NCBI GenBank assembly: GCA_963920635.1
Contig: OY987302.1
Location: 38,939,500 to 39,003,499 of the forward strand
Source: Pseudeuparius sepicola
Lineage: Eukaryota; Arthropoda; Insecta; Coleoptera; Anthribidae
DNA length: 64,000 nucleotides
Reading direction: 5' to 3'
This document shows positions 2,374 to 58,244 of this stretch, one piece after another. A model generated the notes under the pieces. It had not been told where the DNA came from. It was given only the letters and a program-made list of their open reading frames with translations, and searched no databases. Position numbers and translations under genes: made by a program. Position 1 is the stretch's first letter. Every line of letters begins with the position of its first letter.

Positions 2374-2719
2374 TTTTAAAAACAAGCTTTTATTTAAGCC
2401 ATGTACTAAAACAAATAAAATAAGTTTAGGTTTTCGTTAAGAAAATTCAATTCCAAATTGCGACAAGTTTTTGCAAATTGAAAAGCTTGTCGCGCGAATT
2501 GTAAAGAAAAAAATGCATACTTTGGCAAATAGGCACTTGCTTATCTACCAATCACTGCCCAATAAAATTAATTGGTTCCTACTTCCATCAACATTTCGCG
2601 CGACAAGCTTTTCAATTTGCAAAAACTTGTCGCAATTTGGAATTGAATTATCTTAACGAAAACATAAACTTATTTCATTCGTTTTAGTACATGGCTTAAA
2701 TAAAAGCTTGTTTTTAAAA
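2374..2719. mobile_element. foldback element with about 130-bp arms
   Basis: The left arm (TTTTAAAAACAAGCTTTT, then AATTCCAAATTGCGACAAG) is matched by its reverse complement on the right, leaving a short unique centre. Both arms carry GCGACAAG/CTTGTCGC blocks. There is no coding potential. It is probably a non-autonomous DNA transposon. Confidence 0.8.
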
Positions 2720-2721
2720 TA

Positions 2722-3447
2722 GTTATTTATGTACCAAGGCACTGAAGTTCAACTTTTTATTACTCATGTGGAATTTAGTTGCCAAGGCCTCTGGCCGAGG
2801 CAAATATACCACATGAGCCATAAAAAGAACTTCAGTGCCGAGGTACAAATTATATATATTTTCTTGAAATCGGCATTAAAATGTCCCAAAAGCGTCATTA
2901 AAAGCACAGAAATCGTACAATAATGTAGCCCATTATTGTACGATTTTTTCAATAAGTAGGCCTTGGTGACGCGGAGAAATCGCCCGTCAAAAGTGACCAA
3001 ATATTCAAAACCCGGCCGATAAAGGCTCATTTAACTTTTCGTACACATTGCGAAATTGTTTCCTATAGAAGCGCAATCCTTCAGTATACATATTTTAGTA
3101 AATTTGAAAATCAATAGATTTGTTGTGTAGGCTGCACAAGAAGCAGCAGTTTGGTTTTTCTGTCAGAAGGTGCCGTACATCATTATACTTGTCCTAGGTA
3201 GAGCGATCAGTAAAGTCAAGCAACGCCGCGCGTAGTCGGTTCGTGGACGGGTGATCCCTTATTATTATTTTCTTGCCTAATAAAACATTTTTTTTTCCGA
3301 TTTCAAGAAAAATATAATATGTACCTCGGCACTGAAGTTCTTTTTATGACTCATGTGGTTTATTTGCCTCGGCCAGAGGCCTCAGCAACTAAACTCCACA
3401 TGAGTCATAAAAAGTGGAACTTCAGTGCCTTGGTACATAAATAACTA
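2722..3447. repeat. nested inverted repeat cluster, part 1
   Basis: The block at 2722-2850 (ATGTACCAAGGCACTGAAG ... CTTCAGTGCCGAGGTAC) is itself a hairpin. It returns inverted at about 3318-3440, making a foldback of about 725 bp. Inside is a segment with CTTGAAATCGGCATTAAAA and a TTGTACGATTTTTTCAATAA block that also occurs at 3720-3760 and 62640-62880. This is a dispersed repeat family with no coding capacity. Confidence 0.75.
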
Positions 3448-4200
3448 TTTTTTAAAATCGGAAAAAAAAACTGTTTTATTAGGCAAGAAAATAATCATAA
3501 GGGATCACCCGTCCATGAACCAAATGCGCGCGGCTTTGCTTGACTTTGACGATCGCTCTACCTAGGTCAAGTAAGATAAGTCTTCGAACAGACAAACCAA
3601 ATTGCTGCCTGTTGTGCAGCCTCCACAGCAAATCTCTTGATATTCAAACCTACTTTATTGGCCGGGTTTTTTGACGGGCGATGGCTCCGCGTCTGACATT
3701 TGATGTTTACATCTCGCCAAGGCCTACTTATTGAAAAAATCGTACAATAATGGACTACTTCAGTGCCAATTTCTGAGCTTTTAATGACGATTTTGGGACA
3801 CTTCACTGCCGATTTCCCGAAATAGTTATTTATGTACAAAGGCACTGAAGTTCAACTTTTTATTACTCATGTGGAATTGTGTCGTCTTCGAACAGTCAAA
3901 CCAAATTGCTCCCTGTTGTGCAGCAAATCTCTGATATTCAAACCTACTAAAATATTTATACTGAAAGATTGCGCTAATATAGGTAACAATTTCGCAATGT
4001 GTACGAAAAGTTAAATGGGCCTTTTTTGGCCGGGTTTTGAATATTTGGTCACTTTTGACTCGCGATGGATCAGCGTCTGACGTTTGATGTTTACATTTCT
4101 ACTTATTGAAAAAACGTACGATAATGGGCTACTTTAATGCCGATTTCTTAGCTTTTAATGACGATTTTGGGACACTTTAATGCCGATTTCAAGAAAAGGT
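3448..4200. repeat. nested inverted repeat cluster, part 2
   Basis: A second, diverged set of the blocks seen just upstream, mostly in opposite orientation: GGATCACCCGTCCATGAAC mirrors the start of the first set, and CACTGAAGTTCAACTTTTTA recurs at about 3842. It looks like a rearranged copy of the same repeat family. Confidence 0.65.
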
Positions 4201-4680: not shown

Positions 4681-5194
4681 CGTGCGGGGTTTTCGGGTTC
4701 TCCCATCGGGCGCCTCGCAGGTGGTGGATAGGGAACGCCCTCCTAGCAGAGGGCACCAGGGAAATTAAATACCCTGGGGCGAACCAAAACCGGGTATTGG
4801 GAACAGCAGCGCTGAGAGGGGCGTCAGATCTATGGATGGCGGGGGTCAACCGGACTCACGTCCGGGGTCACCTGGCATCCTGGGGTCGACCGCCTCTCGT
4901 GGATGCCTGCCCAATACATACCGTAGTCGACAGGTCGGTGGTTGTAGAGGAAGTGCCAGTCGGCTATGGAGGCTTGCCTTAACCAGCCGGCCAAGTGGTT
5001 GGGAGCCACAATAAAACTCCCCCCAAGTCAAGGTGGAACAGCATAAGCAGAGGACTGCGTGGCTAAGGGGAAGCTTAGTCGCTATTATGCGGACTCCGGG
5101 TACTTTGGCGATCTCCCGGTTTTAATAGTCTTCCTGTGGAAAGCGGGGATCTGCTGCAGGCGACCGACATTCCCTTGCTACTCGTGGGACGAAC

Positions 5195-6306
5195 ATGGAA
5201 TCGAGTAAACAAGAAGAGAAGGAAGAAAAAAACAAGAAAAAAAAGAAAAAAAATAGGAAACCTCGCTGAACCCATGGAACAGGCAGAAAATCCTGACCAG
5301 AGGGCAGAGGAAGAACTGCTGAAAAGCAGCGACGAAGAGATCGGAAAATCTCTCCTACCAATGCCATTGTCAACGGGGGATAAAGGACCAAAGAGGCTTC
5401 GGTCTGATGGGACCACCCCAGAAAAACCAGATCCTAAGCGGACCAAGAAAGAAGGGCAACCAACTGCGGGCCCTTCAACTTCCGTGAAGTCCAAAAGACC
5501 TACCTTCAGTCAGATGGCAGGAGGTATCAAGGTCGGGATACTAGCGGAAAAATATCCAGAGGAACTTCTCACAGTGGATCAACAGAAGTCCATACAAGAA
5601 GCGATTCTCGAAAAGATTCTAGCCAACAAGCAAGGGGCCACTGTAAAGCCGAGCTTCTACAGCTACCACAACAGGCCAGGATGGCTAGCTCTCCTCTGTG
5701 CCGATGAGAACACCGTCGGGTGGCTCAGGGACACTACGAGGGAACATTGGCCCATGGGAGTGGGCCAATCTTAGGATGGTATCCGAGGCTGAACTGCCTC
5801 ATACAGAAGTCCTAGTTGCCTATTTCCCAGGAAGTGAGGACTACTCGAACGACAAGATTCTCAAGCTGTTAGAGGCCCAAAATGAAGGAATCGCAGCAAC
5901 AAACTGGAGGGTGCTTAGGAGATCATCCAGCGGCCCCACAGTAGAACTGACCCTCTCAGTAGATCACCAATCGGTGGAGGCTCTGAGCAAAAGAGGCAAC
6001 AAGGTGAACTACAGATTTGGCCAAACTCAAGTAAGGCCAAAAGCTAGTAAGCCAAAGACCTCAAGCAAAGGTTCCCAGGAAAGGGCACAACCAGGTCCCT
6101 CTGGAATCAAACAGAGACAGGGCACGCAGAAACCAAGTGGCTCAGCAAAAGTAGCAGATAAAGGCAAACAAGAGCCTAAGAAATCAGCTAGTCAGCCAAT
6201 TCCGCCTAAAGGCAAAAAGCCTAAGGAGGATGAAAAGAAGGCTGTTGGAGGCAAGCCAAGGGGCCAACCAGAAAGCCCCAAGGATACCTCCAAAAATGTC
6301 GAGTAA
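5195..6306 (+). pseudogene. LINE ORF1 (Gag-like), frameshifted
   Basis: ORF1 of the LOA-type element, the RNA-binding partner of the ORF2 protein. The likely start is the ATG at 5195 (MESSKQEEKEEKNKKKK). The long A-rich lysine tract that follows has slipped frame, because the main body continues in another frame from MEQAENPDQRAEEELL at 5274. A conserved-looking core (KVGILAEKYPEELLTVDQQ, then SFYSYHNRPGWLALLCADEN) resembles the DUF4780-type ORF1 of insect LINEs. A second single-base shift near 5745-5765 moves the frame, after which EAELPHTEVLVAYFPGSEDY and a lysine/proline-rich tail follow. The stop TAA at 6304 overlaps the ORF2 start ATG at 6296 by 11 bases, a usual arrangement in these LINEs. 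Confidence 0.8.
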
Positions 6307-9300
6307 TATTCGATGCCTGCAGATAAATCTCCAGCACTCAAAAGCCGCCTCGAGTGTGCTTAGCAGGAGATTTATCAAGGGCAATTTCGGAATTGGGCTA
6401 ATCCAAGAGCCCTGGATCAGTAGAGGACGAGTGTGTGGACTCCCATCAAAATCGTGTAAGTTACTGTATAGCACCGTACACGATAAACCAAGAGCAGCAA
6501 TACTGCTCTGCAATAATGTAAACTTCTTTTCCATTTCAGAATTTACAACAAGAGACTTGGTGGCCATAGAGGCGGAAGTCCCAACTGAGGGGGGCAAGAG
6601 GCGTATTATTATAGCCTCGGCCTATTTCCCCGGTGACGAGTCTCAAGCACCACCAGAGGAAGTTAAGCGCCTCATCACCTGGTGCAAGAAAAAGAACAAG
6701 CAGTACATTTTGGGCTGCGATGCGAATGCACACCACACAATGTGGGGCAGCTCGAATATCAACCCCAGATGTGAGTACCTACTTGAATTTTTGTCGGCTA
6801 ATAACATAGACATAATCAACAAAGGTAATACCCCTACTTTTATGAATGCAATCAGGAAAGAAGTTTTAGACATAACTCTAGCTAGTTCATTTATAACAGA
6901 ATCAATCAAAAAATGGCATGTTTCTGAGGAGGCCTCAATGTCGGATCATATGCACATACGATTTGACATAGAGGCTGCGGTCATATGCATCGAAGAACGT
7001 AGGAATCCTAGACTAACCGACTGGGTCCTTTACAAGGAACACATAAGGTCGGAAGTCGAGGGAAATACCTACTCCATCGAAAGCGTAGAGGAACTGGAAA
7101 GAGCCTCTGTTAATTTAAATAACCTAATAATATCGTCATTTGAGGACAACTGCCCGGTAACACAAAAGACTACATCCAGAGATGTGGAACAGGGTGGAAC
7201 AGGGAACTTGGCAGACTTAAGGCCAAGACAAGAAAATTATTCAACAGAGCTAAAAGCTCAGGGAATTGGGATGAGTACAGAACATCCCTAACAGAATACA
7301 ACAAAGAATTGAGAAAGTCTAAAAGAAGGACTTGGAGACAGTTCTGTGAGGGGATTGATAAACTAGCCCCAGCAGTACGACTTCAAAAGGTCCTATCAAA
7401 AGATCACTCAAGTGGTATAGGCCTACTTAAAAAGCCTGATAACAAATTCACTCAAGATAGACAGGAAAGCCTAGAGGTTCTATTACAAACTCACTTTCCT
7501 GGCTCCACAATTTTAGAAGGAAATCAGGCACAGGCTTCTCTGGAAGAGGCTGTACATCGCCCAAACAGAAGTCAAAAAAGCCTAGCGAAAAAGATTTTTA
7601 ACTCTAACAAAATCAGATGGGCCATAAATAGCTTTAAACCCTACAAATCACCAGGCAAGGATGGAATTTTTCCAGCTCTGCTTCAAAACAGCATCGATGA
7701 GCTCCTACCAGCGTTAGGAGCTATATTCAAAGCTAGCTTTAACTTTGAATACATTCCAAGTCTGTGGAGAGAGGCTAAGGTGGTGTTCATTCCAAAGACA
7801 GGAAGGCGTCCATCTGAAGACCCCAAGTCTTACCGACCCATTAGCCTCACATCCTTCCTCCTGAAAACAATGGAGAAACTAATTGATCTGCACATTAGAA
7901 GCGAAATCTTATCCGAGAAGAAACTTCATGTGAACCAATTTGCCTACCAGCCCGGCAAATCGACAATCAGCGCTCTGAATTGTCTAACAATGGACATTGA
8001 AAAGACACTAATGGCAAAAGAAATCGCTCTCTGTGCATTTATAGACATAGAAGGGGCTTTTGATAACACCTCATATGAATCCATAAAAAGCACCTGTGAA
8101 AGAAGAGGAATGAAATCTTCCATAATAAACTGGATACAATCCACATTGCCAAGCAGGGTTGTCACAACTGAAATCGGAGATTACTCGGTCACCGCTACCA
8201 CGGTAAAAGGCTGTCCCCAGGGGGGGGGGGGTTCTATCGCCTCTGCTGTGGTCACTGGTGGTCGACGACCTGTTGAAGGAACTGACAAACTCTGGCGTTG
8301 GTGTCCAAGGTTACGCAGACGACCTGGTCATTACAGTGAAAGGCAAGCATGAAGGCGTCATTTCCAACCTAATGCAAAATGCCCTTAACATTATCAGCAA
8401 CTGGAGCCATGAAGAGGGGCTTAATGTCAATCCAAGCAAGACGGTTCTAGTTCCGTTTACAAAAAGAAGGAAGCTCAACCGGAAAGCACCCACGCTAAAC
8501 AACAAAGAACTTACATTTTCCAGTGAAGTGAAATATCTAGGAGTCATACTAGACTCCAAACTTTCCTGGAACCAACATCTACAAAAAACCATTGCCAAAG
8601 CGACAGCGGCTTTATGGTCATGCCGCGCGCTATTTGGCAAATCATGGGGATTAAAACCAAAAATGATCCTATGGTCCTACTTTACTGTCGTAAGGCCGAT
8701 CATCACATATGCCTCCCTTATATGGTGGCCAAAAACAAAGGAAAAAGGGGCGCAAGGCAAGTTGCAGAAAATGCAACGGCTGGCTTGTCTGGGTATCACA
8801 GGGGCCTTAAGTACATGCCCCACAGTTGCAATGGAGGTAATGCTTGACCTCACTCCGCTATACATTTTTGTGCAAGAAGAGGCAACAAAAAGTGCCTCGC
8901 AACTTTACCAAGACAACAAATTGAAAGCAGGGGACCTTATTGGTCACCTAAAAATACTGGACACTGTCCAACTACAATCCTTGACAATGCCAAAGGACTA
9001 CATGCAGAAGAAATACGACTTTGAACTATCGTTTGAAGTGGTCATCCAAGACACCATCCATCTTCCAGGCAGAACTTCAAGCCATAAATGTATGTGCTCA
9101 CGAGTGTATCAACAGACGCATCAAGGGGGCAAGAATATACATCTTATCAGACAGTCAGGCAGCATTGAAAGCTCTAAAGTCTTATACTTATGAGTCTAAG
9201 GTTGCCTGGGAATGTAAAACACATCTAAAGCAACTGGCTATAGGCAACAGATTGACCTTAATGTGGGTGCCAGGGCATGAAGGTGTTCATGGGAATGAAA

Positions 9301-9788
9301 TTGCTGATAGCCTCGCTAGAGAAGGGGCTAAGGCTCCATTTTACGGTCCTGAATCATTCTGTGGCATAAATAAAAGCCACCTATTGACAGAGATCAAAAC
9401 ATGGGAAAAGGAACAAAAGGAAGCCTACTGGAGTAACACTCCGGGATAAAGACAAGCGAAAAGATTTTTGACCTATTCGCCTCAGAACGCCAAAAAGCTT
9501 CTCACTCTAAACAAGAATGAATTAAGACTCATCACAGGTCTCCTGACTGGACACTGCCCTTTAAGATATCATCTTAAAAAAATGGGAAAAACAGACAATG
9601 GACTATGCAGATTTTGCAACGAACGGGATGAGACTAGCGAGCACATACTGTGTGAGTGTCCCCTCTTAATTCGAAACAGACTTAAATACTTCGAAAGGAT
9701 CAATATAAATCCAAATGAAATTGGCAACTTAGCCCCAAGGAAAATACTAAGCTTCGTCAAAAGCCTAGGTGACCTTGGAATTTATTAG
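6296..9788 (+). pseudogene. LINE ORF2: endonuclease, reverse transcriptase, RNase H (degenerate)
   Basis: ORF2 performs target-primed reverse transcription. The endonuclease begins MSSNIRCLQINLQHSKAAS, with LIQEPW, GCDANAHHTMWGS and SDHMHIRF. A perfect 10-bp tandem duplication (GTGGAACAGG twice, 7184-7203) breaks the frame before the RT. The RT shows FIDIEGAFDN, GCPQGG and YADDLVI. The frame is lost again in a run of 12 G at 8220-8231, directly after the codons for GCPQ. In the RNase H, LSDSQAALKAL and VPGHEGVHGNEIADSLA are present, but the first catalytic strand (usually TDGS) is missing between about 9036 and 9054. A TAA at 9447 interrupts the frame before the C-terminal CRFCNERDETSEHILCEC zinc motif. 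Confidence 0.88.
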
Positions 9789-15559: not shown

Positions 15560-16300
15560 TTATGATTGGCCAAGATTTTGAGTCGAGGCCTTTCTTATCT
15601 ATTAATTGCGAGAAAAGAAGACCTCTTGAAGTGCAGTCAGCCAGGATTATATTTGCTAGTAACATGGCGCCAGCATTCTGCCAGAATTATTTCTTGGATA
15701 TGAAAATATTGTGGAATTGTAGATGTAAAAGAGAGCTCCTTACAAACTCTTCTAAATGGGCTACCAACACAGCAGCCCACAACTCTAAACGAGGCAAGGA
15801 CACCATTTTAGAGGAACTACCTTTGACTTGGCTCAAACAAGTGAAATTTTCATATTTCCATGTAAATCTTTACAAAAAAAAAAATGGATCACTGCTGCAT
15901 ATCCAAGTTTGCTAGTATCACTAAAAGCGTAAAGTTCCAATGCTTGGAATTTTTCACACAGAATATGACGTTTTTTGTTAAGCGAAGAAAGTAATAGGAA
16001 TTCAGCCCTGTACATCTCACATATTTTTGTAGTATAGGTTGAAACGGTAGGATATTGTAGAAAAATTAATCTTGAGTGGGACGCCAACGAAGGCCTAAAA
16101 AACAAAGTTAGCATATTTGTCAAAAGAAAACTAGGTTTCCTGGAGATTTTCAGGAATGATTTCCATAAACTTAGAAAAATTACTTCACCATTCTTGAAGA
16201 ACAAATTGCTCTTCATTGAAGATCGAAACAAGTTAATTTTTTGTTTGTGGACCTTCAGATAAAGAGTCACACCCAGGTACGATGTCACTGACGTAGACAT
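15560..16300 (-). pseudogene. BEL/Pao retrotransposon RT/RNase H remnant
   Basis: A minus-strand frame ends with LYAFSDTSKLGYAAVIHFFF, the BEL/Pao RNase H signature (usually FSDAS...GYAAV). It is followed in a shifted frame by KMVSLPRLELWAAVLVAHL, matching the usual LPRLELCAAVLLARL. The upstream part is too decayed to name domains. Order and strand fit the integrase block at 13078-14116. Confidence 0.7.
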
Positions 16301-19145
16301 CGTTTGGGCTGTTCTTCATTGGCAAGCTGACATCTTGCACAGGTTCTTTTACAGAAAATCTGCAGACGATTCTTTAATAATGTTGGTGTTGTGGAACAAC
16401 GTTCACCTGCCGACACATCTGTTTTATAGCAGACGTGAAAACTACTGTATGTACAGGGTGTCCCAAACTCGAAGCCCCAGGGTTATTATAGGCAAACAAA
16501 AACAGCCACTAAAAATTTGACTTCTGGGTTTCTTGTAGGACCACTCAAGGTTGCTTTTGGGCCAAAAAGATAAGTTTTAGGAATTTCCCAGGACCATACC
16601 TACTGTTTCTCTTTATATTTGGAAAGAACACGTTTTTCTGCTAAACTTTCGTAAATATTTTTTTTGATACCTTGTTTCATTAAAAAGTTAATGCGTATTA
16701 TTTGTAAAAATATGAAAAAGATGCCATGGTATTTTTTAATGAAAATCGAGTTGGCCACGACTTATGAAGGTATGTTTTTGACAGAAACAATTGACAGATG
16801 CTCTGACAGATGTATGATGGAAAAAGTATTAAAATTTTATTATTAGTTATAAAAATATAACTGTATGAACGCCTTTTTAAGTAAAACTGTTATTGGTGCT
16901 ATTTTTTCTATTAAATCATCATTATTCCGAGATGGAATTTTGTAAACAAGGTTTTTCTGGATTGTAGGATTGTTAATTGTAAGAAATAAATCAATTTTGC
17001 ACAAAAGATGTCCTTCGGTGTTTGTTAATAATACGTAAAGTAGAACATAATTGTTCCAAAGAGACAGCAAATTTTGATTATATTATTTTGTTCGTAAAAT
17101 TTACTCTTTTGAATAATTTAATACATTGCAGTTTGAAAAATTTTACACGCCGAACATTCTTTGGCGAAAATTTACACTTAGATTCAGAATATCGTGTGAA
17201 GCAACTTTCCTTAATAACGTTTTTCAAAAACCCGCACCCAAATATCTTTTTTGGTAATTATTTGCTGTAGTTATATTTCTCATAAACTCATAACTGAACA
17301 TTACTTTTGAGAAGAACTTTATAATATTATTAACAACATCATTAAACCATTAACATTACAGAATACCTAATTAAGTCGCAACACAAAGGCATCCAAGAAT
17401 GTTCATAAAAAACAACAAAACGATTAACGATAATGTAAAAATGTGTAGGTAAATAGAACACATTAAATATAAATCCATACCTAAATTCATTCTAATTGTA
17501 TTTGAAAGCGAACTGCTATTATTTCTTTGAATTTTGTAATAAACCCTTGATTTACTATACTCCTACAATAATATTATACAAAATTAACTACTTAGTTGTG
17601 ATCCAGAAAATATGGTTTTGTTATTTAAATGACCGCAATATTTAATAATAATAATTGGTGTAATTTGACTCTAGCATTGTATTGGTAGGTACCACAAATT
17701 TAAGTATTGTGAGGTTGGGCATTATTATTAATTATACTAGGGTTATTTCTTTGTTGTAATATCCGATTTTTTGACAGATTGTTGGCTTTGTAAATAGTAA
17801 ATAGGTTAGGTCATCACATCCTTCGCTATTGTCGAATCGTTAAATTTAATAAGCTTTACAAACACCTTCGTTTCGTAAATATTTTTTGTTTTTATGTAGG
17901 CACTGACGTCTAGTCGGCTTACTTACCCTGCAATAATTCTAAAAACGTAAACCTAACGTCGCTGGTTTCACAATATATCCTTAACTATAGTTCAGCTTAT
18001 AAATAAATTACACCACATACCTTATTATTAACAACTAGACTACGGTTCGACATTGACTGGTGTCTCCAAATAATGAACTTGCGCATTCATGACTAATCTC
18101 AAATTATGAGAACAAACAATTTAGCACTAAACAATAAATGTTTAGTTATCTACTCGGAGCTTATAATTTTAATTCCTATATTGAATTGAAATACGCCATG
18201 CCATCTATCGGTTCCTATTCCAATTCCAGTTGCTGAGTGAAATTGTAATGATATTTTAATATTTGAGCGTTAGGTGAGAGTCAACGATTTTACCATTATA
18301 CTAGCAGGAAGTTGATAAACCGAAAATGATTATTTACTTATGTTGATAAGCTAATATATCTAATGGTAAGGTATCAGAAGGTTAAATATTTTACTAAGGG
18401 TAAGCAACAACAACAACAGAACAAAGATTCGCAAAACTTTAGTTTCACTTCTAAATATAAATAAATATGGTTCGTACAACACAAATTCCGTTGCACGTCA
18501 TCAATAACAATTAATGACGAAAATTGTGTTACCAACGTTTTATATGAAAACATATGTGATTTTGTGTCTTGATATTTGAATTTGGCCTAGTATTATGTTG
18601 GTACCGCTGTTAACGCTACGGGCGACGTTGCCGAATTTACAACCGCCAGAGCCCGAGTTATAAGTTATAACCTCGTGGACGCGCACGTGAACGTATCCAC
18701 GCGTTTTGCATTGTTTACCGGCTTGGTGTACGTTTTTCGAGGTTTTGCTATACTTAATTTGCGACCGAGTAAAACAACTGTTCTTTTAAGAACAAAGTTA
18801 GTAATAATTTTGAGGATATTGGGCTTGTAAAATGTGGTTTTAAAATATGGTGAATGCGACGGTTATTGTTTATATCTTTATTTATCACGATACGGCAACG
18901 CTGCGTCCCTATGACGAGTCTTTTCCAATGCCGTATACGATGACGTGCATCGGAATTTGTTTTGTACGAACCATAGGTAGATGATCTACCTATGATCCGT
19001 GACTATAATCCATTGATAGTTAGTCACTGCTATGATATAACTCTACCCACAATTTTGCAAAAATAAACAAATTTATGTTCACTAATAAGACTATTTAAAA
19101 GGTTATTCTAGAATGGTTTTGCCTACTATGTACTTGTACTTGTTT
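16301..19145. other. long AT-rich spacer
   Basis: No convincing gene. At 16451 there is one repeat end (TACAGGGTGTCCCAAACTCG) whose inverted partner I did not find. Around 18600-18960 the sequence becomes CpG-rich (GCGACCGAG, GACGCGCACGTGAACG), which could be a promoter or first non-coding exon. That is speculation. Confidence 0.4.
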
Positions 19146-21047: not shown

Positions 21048-22400
21048 AATTTATTAAATTGTGAGCGAAACATCTCCCTTTGTCAAATAACCATGTTCCG
21101 ATTTTATGGATAGTTTTTAGTTGTTCAGGAAGCAAGTTGTAGACTTTGGAGCCAAATGGGCACATCTTTGCCCAATTGTTTTCTTGGTACGAGGAACATT
21201 AACACCAACTAACTTAGCTCGCGTGTTGTGCACATGTTTAAGAGGATTCAGTAATATATTTTTTTTCATAAATGTTAGCTGTTAATATATTTTGGAGATA
21301 TAGTTGTCTCGCATCAAACATTTTCGATTCAATATACAAATTTTCGCTGGGGTATTGTTCTTCCGTCAATTTTTGAACGATGTTTAGATTTTCCAAATAA
21401 CATTTTTTCACTCCACCCCAAGCAATGATACCATATTTTATTTGAGATTGTATAAATGCATGATATAGGATATTCAAATATTTTATATTTAGGCATTCCT
21501 TTAGATATCGAAAACGTCCAACAAAACTGCGAACTTTTTTAACAATGTCTTGTATGTGCAGATTCCATCGAAGATGAGGGTCAATTTTTATGCCAAGGTA
21601 TTTTACCGATGTATCTTCTTGTATTACGAGGTCATTAGCAATATGGAGTGGACCCATCTTTGGCAAGTTACTTGCGTAGGAGGTGAAGCAAATATATTTA
21701 GTTTTGTTGATGTTTAATGACAATTTATTATGTTTAAACCAATTTGAAATTTTCTCAAAATCCTCCTCTACAAGTTTCATTTGACCGCTCCAAGAATCTT
21801 CTACATAAAAAATAGCTGTGTCGTCTGCGTAGCTTATAATGTTTAGTTTCTATTTCTAGTAAATTGTTCATGTAAAATAATGAAAAGTAACGGACCCAGC
21901 ACAATTGTTCCCTGTGGTACTCCGCACGTAACTTGTAGAGGGAGACTCATTTGATCTTCTAATTTCACTATTTGTGTTCTATTACTCAGGTAACTTTTAA
22001 AAGGTCATAAGGTATTCCCCGAATGCCCATTTGTTCTAACTTCTCTAAAAGCTTTTTATGGCACACTGTATCAAACGCTTTGCTTAGATCGATGAAAACA
22101 CTTATTGCTGGTTTTACATTATCAAGGGCAATGTATGTGTGAAATTAACTTTAGTGTCTTCTGTTGATCTGTGTTCCCTAAAACCATATTGATTATCAGA
22201 GAGTAATTTGTGGGAGTCTAAGAAATGCGTCAATCTTTGCTTCAGTATTTTTTCATATATTTTTGCTATATTTGAAATTAGAGAAATTGGTCTATAGTTA
22301 TTCGGTTCACATTTGTCTCCAGCTTTAAAGAGTGGTTTAATAATTCCAGTTTTATTTTTATAATTTATTTTTATAATTCCAGTTTTCAGCCTTTCGCGAA
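21048..22400 (-). pseudogene. CR1/Jockey-group LINE reverse transcriptase fragment
   Basis: A 5'-truncated minus-strand RT. In order: DNQYGFREHRSTEDTKVNFT, VFIDLSKAFDTVCHKKLLEK (catalytic Asp), CGVPQGTIVLGPLLFI, ISYADDTAIFY (catalytic YADD), then an open frame KLVEEDFEKISNWFKHNKLS ... VKYLGIKIDPHLRWN ... SQIKYGIIAWGG. A shifted C-terminal piece (CPFGSKVYNLLPEQLK) ends near 21050. Frameshifts separate the blocks. The endonuclease is missing, as is usual for 5'-truncated LINE copies. CR1/Jockey group is my assignment from motif style; the exact clade is open. Confidence 0.82.
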
Positions 22401-23520: not shown

Positions 23521-23881
23521 ACTCACTCGCATATAGCGGGTGGCCCATTTAAAACAGTCCACCTGAAATATTTTCAATGGAAATGGTTTTTCCGGAAAAC
23601 CCCGAGACAGGTCGATTTTGCTTTCATGGGGGACATCTTTTGACCGTAAATTCATGGCTGTATGGGCATCCCCTTAAACGGGGTGGCAACCCCTTCAAGA
23701 ATCTTAAATGGCCCGGGGGGTCAAGCGGCACATCATTGGATAGGTAAACAGAATGAATATTTAGTGTCCCCATTATAATTTTAAAAGAAATGGCTTGTAG
23801 CATATGGGACAAAATGCTTTGGTAATTGGCAACACCAAACTAGTTTCCAATATCTAATGGAAATTGTGTATGGGTCTTTCG

Positions 23882-23952
23882 GAGGTGTGCAGACCACGAC
23901 AGGTACCTGTTTCGGGCTTGTTGGCCCTCATCAGGCAGACGTAGCGCACCTC
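23882..23952 (-). ncRNA. type I hammerhead self-cleaving ribozyme, copy 1
   Basis: On the minus strand the full core is present: CUGAUGA, stem II GGGC/GCCC closed by CAACAA, GAAA, stem III CAGGUACCUG, then UC at the predicted cleavage point (between 23898 and 23897). Stem I is formed by four pairs next to the core, an internal loop on both sides, and GAGGTG/CACCTC at the outside. Stem III is short and its ten bases are a perfect palindrome, which favours a dimeric fold as in known animal hammerheads. Identical in copies 2 and 3. Confidence 0.85.
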
Positions 23953-24410
23953 AGCCGAAAAGACCCAAACACGTTGGCTTAGTGGAAAAGGAACTAGTAT
24001 AATGCGGTGAGCATTTACCATCCAACGCCATCTAGCTGGTACTGCCAAAACCAAAGCAATGTGAGTGTGTATATATCGACCGGTCGATCGACATATAAAA
24101 AGAACTCGGCAAAGCGGCGCGGTGCGGTGGAAAAAAACCAGAAGAAGCATACATACGGGGGCCAAGAAACTCGTTTGATTCATCACCGAGTATCTTCTAA
24201 TATATAGAAATCAACAAGGATCGAATCGTGAGTTTCAATCCTCGTGTGCTTACGTCTATAGCCAAACGATGATTAAACAGAATGAATATTTAGTGTCCCC
24301 ATTATAATTTTAAAAGAAGTGGCTTGTGGCATATGGGACAAAATGCTTTGGTAATTGGCAACACCAAACTAGTTTCCAATATCTAATGGAAATTGTGTAT
24401 GGGTCTTTCG

Positions 24411-24481
24411 GAGGTGTGCAGACCACGACAGGTACCTGTTTCGGGCTTGTTGGCCCTCATCAGGCAGACGTAGCGCACCTC
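24411..24481 (-). ncRNA. type I hammerhead self-cleaving ribozyme, copy 2
   Basis: Same core, stems and loops as copy 1, exactly 529 bp further on and in the same orientation. Predicted cleavage lies between 24427 and 24426. Cleavage of a minus-strand transcript at copies 1 and 2 would release a 529-nt RNA, which could be circularised. Confidence 0.85.
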
Positions 24482-24791
24482 AGCCGAAAAGACCCAAACA
24501 CGTTGGCTTAGTGGAAAAGGAACTAGTATAATGCGGTGAGCATTTACCATCCAACGCCATCTAGCTGGTACTGCCAAAACCAAAGTATGTATGCTTCTTC
24601 TGGTTTTTTTTTTCCACCGCGCCGCGCCGCTTTGCCGAGTTCTTTTTATATGTCGATCGACCGGTCGATATATACACACTCACATTGCTTTGGTTTTGGC
24701 AGTACCAGCTAGATGGCGTTGGATGGTAAATGCTCACCGCATTATACTAGTTCCTTTTCCACTAAGCCAACGTGTTTGGGTCTTTTCGGCT

Positions 24792-24862
24792 GAGGTGCGC
24801 TACGTCTGCCTGATGAGGGCCAACAAGCCCGAAACAGGTACCTGTCGTGGTCTGCACACCTC
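24792..24862 (+). ncRNA. type I hammerhead self-cleaving ribozyme, copy 3 (inverted)
   Basis: Plus-strand copy. Outer stem I 24792-24797 pairs with 24857-24862 and inner stem I 24806-24809 pairs with 24847-24850. CUGAUGA is at 24810-24816, stem II 24817-24820/24827-24830, GAAA 24831-24834, stem III 24835-24844, and cleavage follows C24846. Being inverted relative to copies 1 and 2, it cannot release the same unit from a single transcript. Confidence 0.85.
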
Positions 24863-25559
24863 CGAAAGACCCATACACAATTTCCATTAGATATTGGAAA
24901 CTAGTTTGGTGTTGCCAATGACCAAAGCATTTTGTCCCATATGCCACAAGCCATTGGATAGGTATTTACATTGCTCTTTACAAACATGCTGAAATTTTAT
25001 TTTTTTGAGTTAACATTAATGTAAAAAAAGCAATGAATATGTCGGTGCAATAAATCGAAAAAACACTTCAAAACAGAACTAAACTGCAAAAAATAAGGCT
25101 TATCAGAGAAGTCGGGGCAAGCTGACGGGTTTTATTAGAATTTTAAAGGTAGTCGCAACAAAACAGCTGATAATAACAAATAAACAGATTTCACTTCTTA
25201 GACAATTCTGGTTAGTAAAATATCGGAAGACGACTACCTTTAAAATTCTAATAAAACCCGTCACCTTGCCACGACTTCTCTGATAAGCCTTAGTTTTTGC
25301 AGTTCAATTCTGTTTTGAAGTGTTTTTTCGATTTATTGCACCGATACATTCATTGCTTTTTTTGCATTAATGTTAACTCAAAAAAAATAAAATTTCAGCA
25401 TGTTTGTGTAAAGAGCAATGAAATACCTATCCAATGATGTGCCACTTGACCCCCCGTGCCATTTAAGATTCTTGAGGGATGACCATTTCCATTGAAAATA
25501 TTTCAGGTGGACTGTTTTAAATGGGCCACCCCGTATACTCTCATATATACATATATATT

Positions 25560-39801: not shown

Positions 39802-40539
39802 CAGAGCTGGGTCAATTACAATTAAAAACTGACCAATTACAATTCCAATTACTTTTGTAGGAATGTAATTAGATCCAATTACAATTCCTTTGATATTTTG
39901 AAATGTAATTGAATTACAATTACTTGTATTTGGAATTGGAATTGATGTATACAATTACTTTTTCAATTACTTCTTGTTTGCTTTATTTTCTATTAAATTT
40001 GTGGACACCAAAATAAGGTAGGTACTTACCTAGTTACTTAAAACACCATAACTGATAACTTAACTATATTAAGTATTATTTGTTGCAAAAAAAGCTCTGA
40101 TGGTATAAATCAGAGCTGGGCAAGTAATTAGGCAAAAGTAATTGAACTGTCAATTAATTCCTTTTCATGGAATTGTACTTAGTTGGAATTACTTTTGAAA
40201 TAGAGACAGTAATTGTAATTTAATATCAAGTACTTTTTGAAAAGGAATTGTACTTGTAATTTAAAATCAATTACTTCTGAGAATTGCAATTCCTTTTTAA
40301 AATTCCTTTAATGCAATTACTGTTTCAATTACAATTACTTTTCCAATTACAATTACTTGTCCAATTACAATTACTTTTTCAATTACAATTACTAACACAA
40401 TCTCCTCTTGCGGTGGATTGATTTTGGAAATATTGCAACGTTGTTTAGGCCAACCTGGCCAACAAAATGCAATGCAAAATAAATGCGTCATTACTGACAA
40501 AGTCCGCAATAATTAGAAAAGTTTTTTTTTAAATATAAT

Positions 40540-51337: not shown

Positions 51338-51491
51338 GCCTGGTTCATACAGCTTCTTTATCTTTTAATTTTTCTTTATCTTTAAGAAACATTAAATGTC
51401 ATTGGTCAGTTCAAATCAAGGGACAAATGCCATTGGTTATTTCTTAAAGATAAAGTAAAATTAAAAGATAAAGAAGCTGCATGAACCAGGC
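51338..51491. repeat. hairpin MITE (GCCTGGTTCATACAGC ends)
   Basis: GCCTGGTTCATACAGCTTCT continuing TTATCTTTTAAT is mirrored by ATTAAAAGATAAAGAAGCTG/CATGAACCAGGC. About 154 bp and non-coding. Confidence 0.75.
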
Positions 51492-56098: not shown

Positions 56099-57880
56099 GC
56101 CTTTATTGTTTGCTTACCAAAATTACAAGATAAATTGAAAGACGGTGGCGACATCCAACTAAAAGCTGCTCTATATAACCACCATAAGAAAATAAATAAA
56201 TAAGCAGTACTCGTAAATACAATATCTCTGTCAAGTCAGTCGTTAAGAGACAAAAAAAAATAAACTTAGTGCAATCTGTTAGATTCAACATATTTTTTAA
56301 TCAACTTGTCAAAGGCGCTCGGGTTAGACGCAGATCTAAAGTGTCGTGGACGGGCACTGAACGTTTTTATGGCGTTGTAAGTAAACGATTTTTCAAATTG
56401 CTTTGTTAGCGACGTTTAGGAATAGAGAAGGTGTGGCAATTGCGGGTATTGAGGGCATGGCGGTCGGAATTTTTGATAAGCTTTAAGTACAAATAATCTG
56501 GCTGAGAGGTAACGCTAAGCGAATACACGAATTTAGCCATTTGAATGAAAAATCTTTCTTCCTAGTTAAACGATCCAGATCGTTTAAAAGCATCGGAGAT
56601 GTGATCAAATTTTCTGATGCCAAAAGAAAATCTTATACAAGCATTTTGGACCATTTGTAGAGAATGTTTTTCCTTGGCAGTCAGAGTGGGCCAGTATACT
56701 AAAAGGCAATAACTTAAATGTGAAAGAATATTACTCTCACACAGTCTGAATTTGATTGGGGTCAAGAATATCTTTGTGCAAGTAAAATAATTTGAGTAGA
56801 CCAAAACATTTTCCTATAAGTTTACGCGTGTGCATCTCAAATTTTTGCATCAAAAATTTTTGCATGATTTTGTTTTGCCTAACTGGGTGTTATTAAGTTT
56901 TAAGCTAAAGTGTTCATCAGTCTCCAATAAGAGTCTGTCTTTTCCCATTATGAGAAACTGGGTTTTACTATCGTTCAGCAATAATCGGTGAGAACCCGCA
57001 TAGGAATTAAGTGCAGCTAAATCACTGTTGAGTTTGAGTATCGCGGAAAAGCGGTCATTGTACCTAGTCAAAAGAAAGATATATTTGTGTGTCATCTGCA
57101 TATTGATGCGAGGAGCAATACTTTAAAGAAAAGGGAAGATCCGCCGTATAAAGAGAAAACAGCAAAGGACCTAAAATACTGCCCTGTGGGACACCGCAAC
57201 TCAAATGAACCAAATCTGAACTTCCACTACTCAGCGTGACCCGCTGGGAACGACCTTCTAAGTAATTCCTAAATAATAACAACGCAGAACTATCCAGACC
57301 GAAGTATTCAAGCTTTTTCAAAATAATAAAATAATGGCGTAGTCCACTGTATCAAACGCCTTGCTGAAATCTAGCACCACCAGACACGTGTTTTTCTTTG
57401 CGTCGTAAGCCCTATATAAATCATCGAAAACGTCGAGCAAGGTGTGCTGTGCTTATGTCGGAAGCCAGAATGTGTACGAGGAATGATGTTATTGGCCAAG
57501 GCAAAATTGTTCAGTTGTAAGTAAACAACCTTCTCCAGTATCTTGGACATAGTGGGCAAAATGCTAATAGGACGATAGTGGGACATTTGAGTAGGGTTTT
57601 TATTTTTAGGTACTGGGTGAACATTAGCCTGTTTCCACAATTTAGGTACAACCATGGTTTCTAGACAGAAATTGACAATGTAAGCAATGTGATCAGAAAG
57701 ATAAGGGACCAGATACAATAACATTTTAGCATTAATTCCATCAGGGCCGGTGGCATTTGATTTCAACTTTAAGATGATGTTCTCCACTGTCCTACCAGTT
57801 ATGGAAGTAAAACAAAAACCAGGAGTGTTCTTCAAAAATGGCTTGTTCATGTAAGAATTCAGTCTTAAAGAATGGTTTAC
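56099..57880 (-). pseudogene. CR1/L2-type LINE, 5'-truncated reverse transcriptase
   Basis: Minus-strand RT in several frames: KSNATGPDGINAKMLLYLVP, ANVHPVPKNKNPTQMSHYRP, ISILPTMSKILEKVV, HSGFRHKHST, then VVLDFSKAFDTVDYA (catalytic Asp), CGVPQGSILGPLLFSLYTAD, HQYADDTQIYLSF (catalytic YADD), LLLNDSKTQFLIMG and a C-terminal part with LSHLSYCLLVYWPTL and MVQNACIRFSFGI. The endonuclease is missing. Frameshifts occur near 57430, 57310 and 57085 and again before 56804. It ends with AATAAAGG and a (TTA)n tail. The YADDTQIYLSF style points to CR1/L2. Confidence 0.82.
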
Positions 57881-58244
57881 GTCGCGGCTTAGGAATGTTG
57901 ATCTCAGCCGAAACCCCTAATTAATGGCGCTACTGACTGGCCGCGCTATTTGATATCGCGCGGAGGTCCGCATCTCCCGGTGCGCAGTTGCCAGTAGTAT
58001 AAACATATCGTAAATTTGCTTGTTTTTACTTTTACCCAGAAATCTGAAAAAATTCGAAATATTGAGAAAACCGATAATTTTTCTGGAGTTTTTAAATTTT
58101 TGGGAAACAATTTTCTGATGTGACGATAAATACAGTAACGTCTAAGTTAATTTATTACCTTTTTGATTTTCCAATGTCAATCCATTGTTTCTTTTTTTAA
58201 AAAATACCAAAAATACGTTTTACAGTAATTAGTGCATTGTGTAG
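57881..58244. other. spacer, no gene seen
   Basis: Short stretch between the LINE and the transposase relic. Nothing recognised. Confidence 0.4.

Follow-up and report, generated by a model that had tools for sequence, protein, structure and literature searches.

Background

Type I hammerhead ribozymes have been described in two kinds of animal element, canonical forms in non-coding retrozymes and minimal forms in Penelope elements (PMC7229834, PMC7761336). The circular RNAs of animal retrozymes measure 170-400 nt, with 150-450 bp in the genome, and the same authors allow that circles produced by ribozymes may range from 150 nt to more than 1000 nt (PMC7229834). Animal retrozymes must borrow the enzyme that moves them, and Penelope elements are a strong candidate only (PMC7229834, PMC7761336). 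According to the proposal of one review, retrozymes are Penelope elements that have undergone reduction (PMC11722881).

Penelope inserts carry one inverted and two direct pseudo-LTRs (pLTRs), a short target duplication and an optional 3' tail, and pLTRs alone can carry unrelated sequence (PMC3846280). In Pen2a of Adineta vaga, two direct pLTRs surround the open reading frame (ORF), the adjacent inverted pLTR is 37 bp shorter, and a tail of 31 bp and a duplication of 9 bp are found (PMC3846280). In Anolis, reverse transcription of Penelope has two internal starts, 30-40 bp apart, the tail being the stretch between them. It most often begins 111-118 bp into the ORF, and the hammerhead cut lies 26 bp into it, which by subtraction places the starts 85-92 nt past the cut. 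The enzyme cuts and extends both DNA strands, and the pLTRs bear type I hammerheads a short distance upstream of where reverse transcription starts (PMC11167929).

Hammerhead-bearing repeats of other kinds are also on record. The satellite pDo500 of Dolichopoda cave crickets consists of repeats some 500 bp long, and is abundant, making up about 5% of one genome (PMC2837043, PMC2808323). Plant LTR retrozymes carry type III hammerheads, 4-bp target duplications, a tRNA primer site and a polypurine tract (PMC4918200). Interspersed hammerhead repeats are described in Aedes aegypti (PMC3088659).

Results

Three hammerhead motifs

The window, i.e. the whole stretch of 64,000 nt from the beetle Pseudeuparius sepicola that was analysed, contains three type I hammerhead motifs, all real, complete and identical (Table 1). 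This is what a reading of the sequence alone had claimed, and it is borne out by two kinds of search. The Rfam model RF02275 (Hammerhead_HH9) aligned end to end, positions 1-77 of 77, at all three sites, with 29.7 bits and an E-value per site of 8.3e-5 in a 2.3-kb scan and 0.0023 in a scan of the whole window. The covariance-model check suggested by that reading thus returned full-length alignments, at a score below the curated cut-off of 52 bits for this family; in the whole window, no Rfam match reaches any gathering score. Since, at other places in the window, two microRNA-precursor families obtain lower E-values, probably through chance, the E-value of HH9 alone is not decisive.

The core alone, as a loose pattern lacking the stems, does not exceed chance expectation (3 matches against 2.66). 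When the core is combined with stems I, II and III, in a descriptor composed after the finding had already been seen, exactly these three sites are selected, and none of 200 dinucleotide shuffles contains a match, on which ground a chance motif was rejected. Exact and near-exact core patterns matched 0 stretches in viral and prokaryotic contig collections, which are uninformative on insects.

Each copy is composed of CUGAUGA, a 4-bp stem II (GGGC/GCCC, with the six-base loop CAACAA), GAAA, stem III, U16.1, C17, where cleavage is expected, and a stem I in two parts. Every invariant core residue and helices I-III are present, helix I being open-ended, as in type I. The layout drawn from sequence alone holds for the core, stem II and the division of stem I, and needs amending at two points. 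For stem III, the best drawing is a helix of 4 bp (A-U, C-G, A-U, G-C) closed by GUAC. The proximal part of stem I is weak: of its six positions, four form pairs adjoining the core, two of them G-U, and are followed by a U-U mismatch and by one further pair.

Table 1. Coordinates of the features identified in the window.
Feature	Position	Strand	Evidence or remark
Whole insertion	23747..24951	- (element sense of direct copies)	13-bp direct repeats at ends; empty site in other foldback arm
Target-site duplication, left copy, CATTGGATAGGTA	23734..23746	.	repeat comparison
Target-site duplication, right copy	24952..24964	.	repeat comparison
Direct copy 1 of repeated part, pLTR-like, with 3' tail	23747..24056	-	sense 3' end at unit position 151-153
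Middle segment between direct copies, 217 bp	24057..24273	-	no coding capacity found
Direct copy 2, 312 bp, without further 5' sequence	24274..24585	-	310/312 identical to copy 1
Inverted copy, 366 bp, without 3' tail, head to head with copy 2	24586..24951	+	sense 3' end at unit position 105-109
Hammerhead ribozyme 1	23875..23953	-	predicted cut after 23898 (- strand); Rfam alignment and descriptor
Hammerhead ribozyme 2	24404..24482	-	predicted cut after 24427 (- strand); Rfam alignment and descriptor
Hammerhead ribozyme 3, within inverted copy	24791..24869	+	predicted cut after 24846; Rfam alignment and descriptor
Older foldback (MITE-like) DNA element that took the insertion	23532..25537	.	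repeat and arm alignment
Foldback outer arms	23532-23587 / 25482-25537
Foldback further arms	23692-23746 / 25424-25478 and 24992-25155 / 25231-25394
Empty site: lone undisturbed copy of target sequence in other foldback arm	25424..25436	-	arm alignment
R2-like LINE, open frame of 820 aa	53498-55957	+	RVT_1; best solved relatives are R2 proteins
Frame-broken LINE	5079-9449	+	DUF4780, endonuclease (Exo_endo_phos_2), RVT_1 and RNase H pieces in successive frames
Retroelement fragment, Pao-type peptidase match	15836-16315	-	Pfam, below cut-off
Retroelement fragment, RVT_1	21241-21849	-	Pfam
Retroelement fragment, RVT_1	57374-57916	-	Pfam, below cut-off
Tandem repeat, 122-bp unit, 3.3 copies, CAAGATGGCGG-like words	1902-2298
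Cluster of short tandem repeats on CAATTA-like words	39877-40393

Folding and expected activity

The 74-nt motif folds better than 200 out of 200 shuffles (z -3.6), and its minimum-energy fold is not the hammerhead. RNAfold, whose energy models leave out tertiary (loop-loop) contacts, assigns -30.5 to the competing fold versus -18.1 to the hammerhead fold, or -23.3 with its helices enforced. The sequence CAGGUACCUG is a 10-base palindrome, and neighbouring ribozymes in a tandem RNA could therefore pair as a dimer. In the Aedes aegypti repeats, where helix III is likewise palindromic and able to form a 10-bp stem in a dimer, the ribozyme was tested without in vitro cleavage, the monomer failing to cleave (PMC3088659). 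Predicted self-cleavage of the three hammerheads is plausible. The predicted 529-nt circle would be very stable, at -169 kcal/mol (z -6.6 against 60 shuffles).

Structure of the insert

The hammerheads lie within one real insertion event, at 23747-24951, whose motifs, copies, ends, target duplication and empty site can be read directly from the DNA. The interval singled out earlier coincides exactly with the insert, CATTGGATAGGTA being found on both sides, directly at the repeat ends, and a third time, in reverse orientation, at the empty site. Because the junction bases TA and CATT are common to element and target, the true duplication measures 7-13 bp. Overlooked in the sequence-only reading were the duplication of the target site, the nested position of the insert and the significance of the inverted copy.

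The insert is made up, in order, of the inverted copy, a truncated direct copy, a 217-bp middle and a direct copy. The tandem spacing of 529 bp is exact, as had been stated, since 23745-24056 and 24274-24585 are identical at 310 of 312 positions. The inverted copy matches copy 1 at 360 of 363 aligned positions, with one 3-base gap, and copy 2 at 265 of 266; it also contains part of the middle (24057-24156). Read-through transcripts of such a locus would fold into a long duplex, with arms of 359 nt (98% complementary) and 266 nt (reported as 100%, with one mismatch in a gapped alignment). That the locus is now a source of hairpin RNA feeding small-RNA silencing is nonetheless hardly credible as an explanation, since any head-to-head insertion of the Penelope type shares this property, which is a consequence more than an origin.

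The 529-nt unit has a G+C content of 43%, i.e. below 50%. Of the frames from ATG to stop in the circular unit, the longest, in the sense orientation, encodes 109 aa; a search for its relatives returned one candidate and none at E<=1, and a coding remnant in the unit was rejected on this basis. The sequence TGGCTTAGTGG at 23975-23985 (+), which recurs in the other copies and lies antisense to the ribozymes, is by eye an apparent match to the Pol III A-box word TGGCNNAGTGG (PMC8969392); no B box was seen, again by eye, at the usual distance. ARAGORN found no tRNA genes.

The empty site

The insert interrupts a foldback (MITE-like) element, the other arm of which preserves the uninterrupted target. 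When the flanks are joined with one 13-base copy and compared to that arm, 234 of 245 positions are identical, with four gapped bases; the joined flanks run through the 13 bases without interruption, the closest gap, of a single base, lying three bases past them. The foldback arms diverge more (11/245) than the insert copies do among themselves. An insertion nested in the foldback element, and younger than it, fits these alignments, unless gene conversion intervened. The arms begin with GGGTGGCCCATTTAAAAC, their flanks are TA-rich, and the left arm has a stretch of ~100 bp that is missing from the right one.

These data bear on the possibility that a fragment of a pDo500-like hammerhead satellite was rearranged at the DNA level, without transposition. 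The unit size is near that of the roughly 500-bp cave cricket repeats, and only 1.6 direct copies are found here, tandem arrays elsewhere being possible; a clean target duplication and an empty site, however, point to one insertion event. This origin is highly improbable, and was rejected because of the empty site.

Two cDNAs and their probable template

When the unit is numbered from the predicted cut, the cDNA on the left flank starts at 151-153, extends over 841 nt (1.6 units) and ends at 371, and that on the right flank begins at 105-109 and extends as far as about 270. The outer ends of the insert are both sense 3' ends of the unit, lying 105-109 and 151-153 nt past the cleavage site and 42-48 nt apart; neither falls at the cleavage site. 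At 24585/24586, the two cDNAs abut in head-to-head orientation. The cleavage junction is crossed twice by the first cDNA and once by the second, and the template would therefore have been not a cleaved linear monomer, which was rejected for this reason, but an uncut multimer or a ligated circle.

No poly-A tail is found at either outer end, the sense 3' ends reading CTGTTTA and CACAAGCCATT, and the 3' poly-A or simple-repeat tail of LINEs is missing from the insert. This weighs against a retrozyme inserted by an ordinary LINE, through target priming and twin priming with 5' inversion. LINE-type reverse transcriptases are present in the window, inversions and 13-bp duplications suit LINEs, and Nematostella hammerhead repeats with 15-bp duplications have been compared with LINEs (PMC4918200). 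Against these points, both ends start within the same 48-nt stretch of the unit, and the inverted and direct copies overlap by about 268 nt, which a single linear one-unit template does not give. Insertion by a LINE is accordingly judged quite unlikely.

Other features of the window

The Pfam scan covered all 17 ORFs of at least 130 aa in the window. Five of them match RVT_1, one below the Pfam cut-off, and none of the five is shown to be Penelope; GIY-YIG is matched by none of the 17. The statement that the window holds neither a reverse transcriptase nor GIY-YIG must therefore be withdrawn for the former, and stands for the latter as regards these 17 ORFs. Among the best 120 of 2623 relatives of the R2-like protein, the closest are 65-69% identical over 86-99% of the query, and those named by organism are insects, at 41-48% identity. 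In viral contigs, six stretches fit a pattern for this protein and none was confirmed. Sub-threshold Rfam matches to plant-type microRNA precursors, at 2474-2619 (-), 3242-3518 (+) and 51338-51491 (-), are probably arms of foldback transposons.

Discussion

Comparison with retrozymes and hammerhead satellites

The insert is retrozyme-like in kind, as the sequence-only reading proposed. It shares with the metazoan non-LTR retrozymes of PMC7229834, as characterised there, a type I hammerhead, tandem copies, a G+C content below 50%, a stable predicted circle, an insert that is non-coding as far as found, and a target duplication longer than 4 bp. The hammerhead is canonical, and LTR, PBS and PPT are lacking, with the qualification that there are only 1.6 direct copies, that these are pLTR-like, and that PBS and PPT were judged by reading. 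It differs from those retrozymes in its inverted copy, its tail and its 529-nt unit. That the unit exceeds the 170-400 nt of animal retrozymes had been noted, correctly; the size is not unprecedented, given the roughly 500-bp repeats described for pDo500. The word 'inverted' is absent from the main text of PMC7229834, and no passage on inverted copies at retrozyme insertions was found in those parts of the retrozyme literature that are cited here, although the pattern may still be published.

The likeness to pDo500, by description, consists of an insect host and a hammerhead repeat of ~500 bp; unlike that abundant satellite, the element is seen here as a single nested insertion. The Aedes aegypti repeats resemble it, again by description, in being interspersed and in having a helix III and loop that can pair as a 10-bp palindrome, comparable to CAGGUACCUG; the anatomy of their inserts is not described in the text of PMC3088659 drawn upon here. 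Plant LTR retrozymes (PMC4918200) also have hammerhead-bearing direct repeats flanking a short non-coding middle. The insert differs from them in its type I hammerhead, its 7-13 bp duplication and its inverted copy, and has neither the type III hammerhead nor the 4-bp duplication of that class.

Comparison with Penelope elements

The anatomy of the insertion agrees with that of Penelope: direct pLTRs, an inverted copy, a short target duplication and a 3' tail. The blueprint, and the nesting in another transposon, are shared with elements of A. vaga (PMC3846280) and with Poseidon PAc of Anolis (PMC11167929), within the accounts given there. As in A. vaga, the tail is present on the direct and missing from the inverted copy, and the duplication is at or slightly above the 8-10 bp reported for that species (PMC3846280). 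The order of sites and their similar distances recall Anolis: the cut is followed, after about 107 nt, by one start and, after a further 42-48 nt, by the second.

The differences concern the element itself. An autonomous Penelope holds an ORF for a telomerase-like reverse transcriptase and GIY-YIG between its repeats, whereas only 217 bp separate the direct copies here, and no coding sequence for either domain was found in the insert. Its hammerhead has a 4-bp helix III and a full HH9 alignment, including both loop regions, unlike the minimal type I form of Penelope, which is without helix III or loop contacts.

These differences also bear on whether the insert is an internally deleted copy of an autonomous Penelope of the host, the repeats being its pLTRs and the 217-bp middle a coding residue. 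The mechanism of insertion would be unchanged, and the element would count as what is left of a Penelope, instead of forming a retrozyme family of its own. The insertion blueprint shared with Penelope agrees with such an origin, as do the type I hammerheads upstream of the start in Penelope pLTRs (PMC11167929), the capacity of pLTRs alone to move unrelated sequence (PMC3846280) and the derivation of retrozymes from reduced Penelope elements that the review proposes (PMC11722881). The lack of a coding remnant, the longest frame being of 109 aa with no relative at E<=1, and the canonical hammerhead, not of the minimal Penelope kind, speak against it, and make a Penelope remnant unlikely.

Proposed mechanism

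From this one locus, the insert is best explained as a non-autonomous, non-coding hammerhead retroelement of the metazoan retrozyme type, with a 529-nt unit, that was probably inserted in trans by a Penelope-like reverse transcriptase/endonuclease. Retrozyme and Penelope had been opposed in the sequence-only reading; the retrozyme kind is retained, and the opposition is not, since the anatomy of the insertion suggests both. We infer the identity of the enzyme, the circular or multimeric template and the activity of the ribozymes.

Hammerhead cutting and ligation by the host would produce a 529-nt circle, a tandem transcript being the alternative template. A Penelope-like enzyme would bind the circle or the tandem RNA, and make a staggered break at the target. 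Reverse transcription would then be primed by each DNA end at an internal position of the RNA, the two positions lying some 105 and 150 nt past the ribozyme cut, yielding one cDNA of 841 nt (1.6 units) and another of about 366-370 nt. The two would be joined head to head at 24585/24586, and fill-in would leave the target duplication.

If two starts were placed at random on a 529-nt circle, they would lie no more than 48 nt apart in 18% of cases, and the tail match alone is weak; a narrower spacing band gives 5%, but was picked after the fact. As the spacing of the ends alone gives this 18%, the argument for Penelope rests on the whole pattern, i.e. inverted copy, tail difference, absence of poly-A, internal ends and short duplication. 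Inverted 5' parts and target duplications are also produced by LINE twin priming.

Implications

The element is most suitably classed among the animal retrozymes, as a new member of large size whose mode of insertion conforms to the Penelope blueprint. Hammerhead elements of this kind are already known, and the anatomy of the insertion is the informative part. As the locus shows, a unit of 529 nt is possible in a hammerhead element, and the template of the insertion kept its cleavage junctions closed. By pairing the Penelope blueprint with a clean empty site, it turns the candidate mover of the literature into an answerable question, which may be put to any genome with this hammerhead family: are the same two internal starts used, and is there a resident Penelope that has them?

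As a tentative reading, the insert may have preserved the moment at which an enzyme of the Penelope type moved a retrozyme, each of the two DNA ends having primed synthesis at one of the two fixed internal starts of the enzyme on an uncut, probably circular, RNA. If true, this would name the motor of metazoan retrozymes, which is only proposed in the literature, and the start sites would be a cis-acting signal common to retrozymes and Penelope elements.
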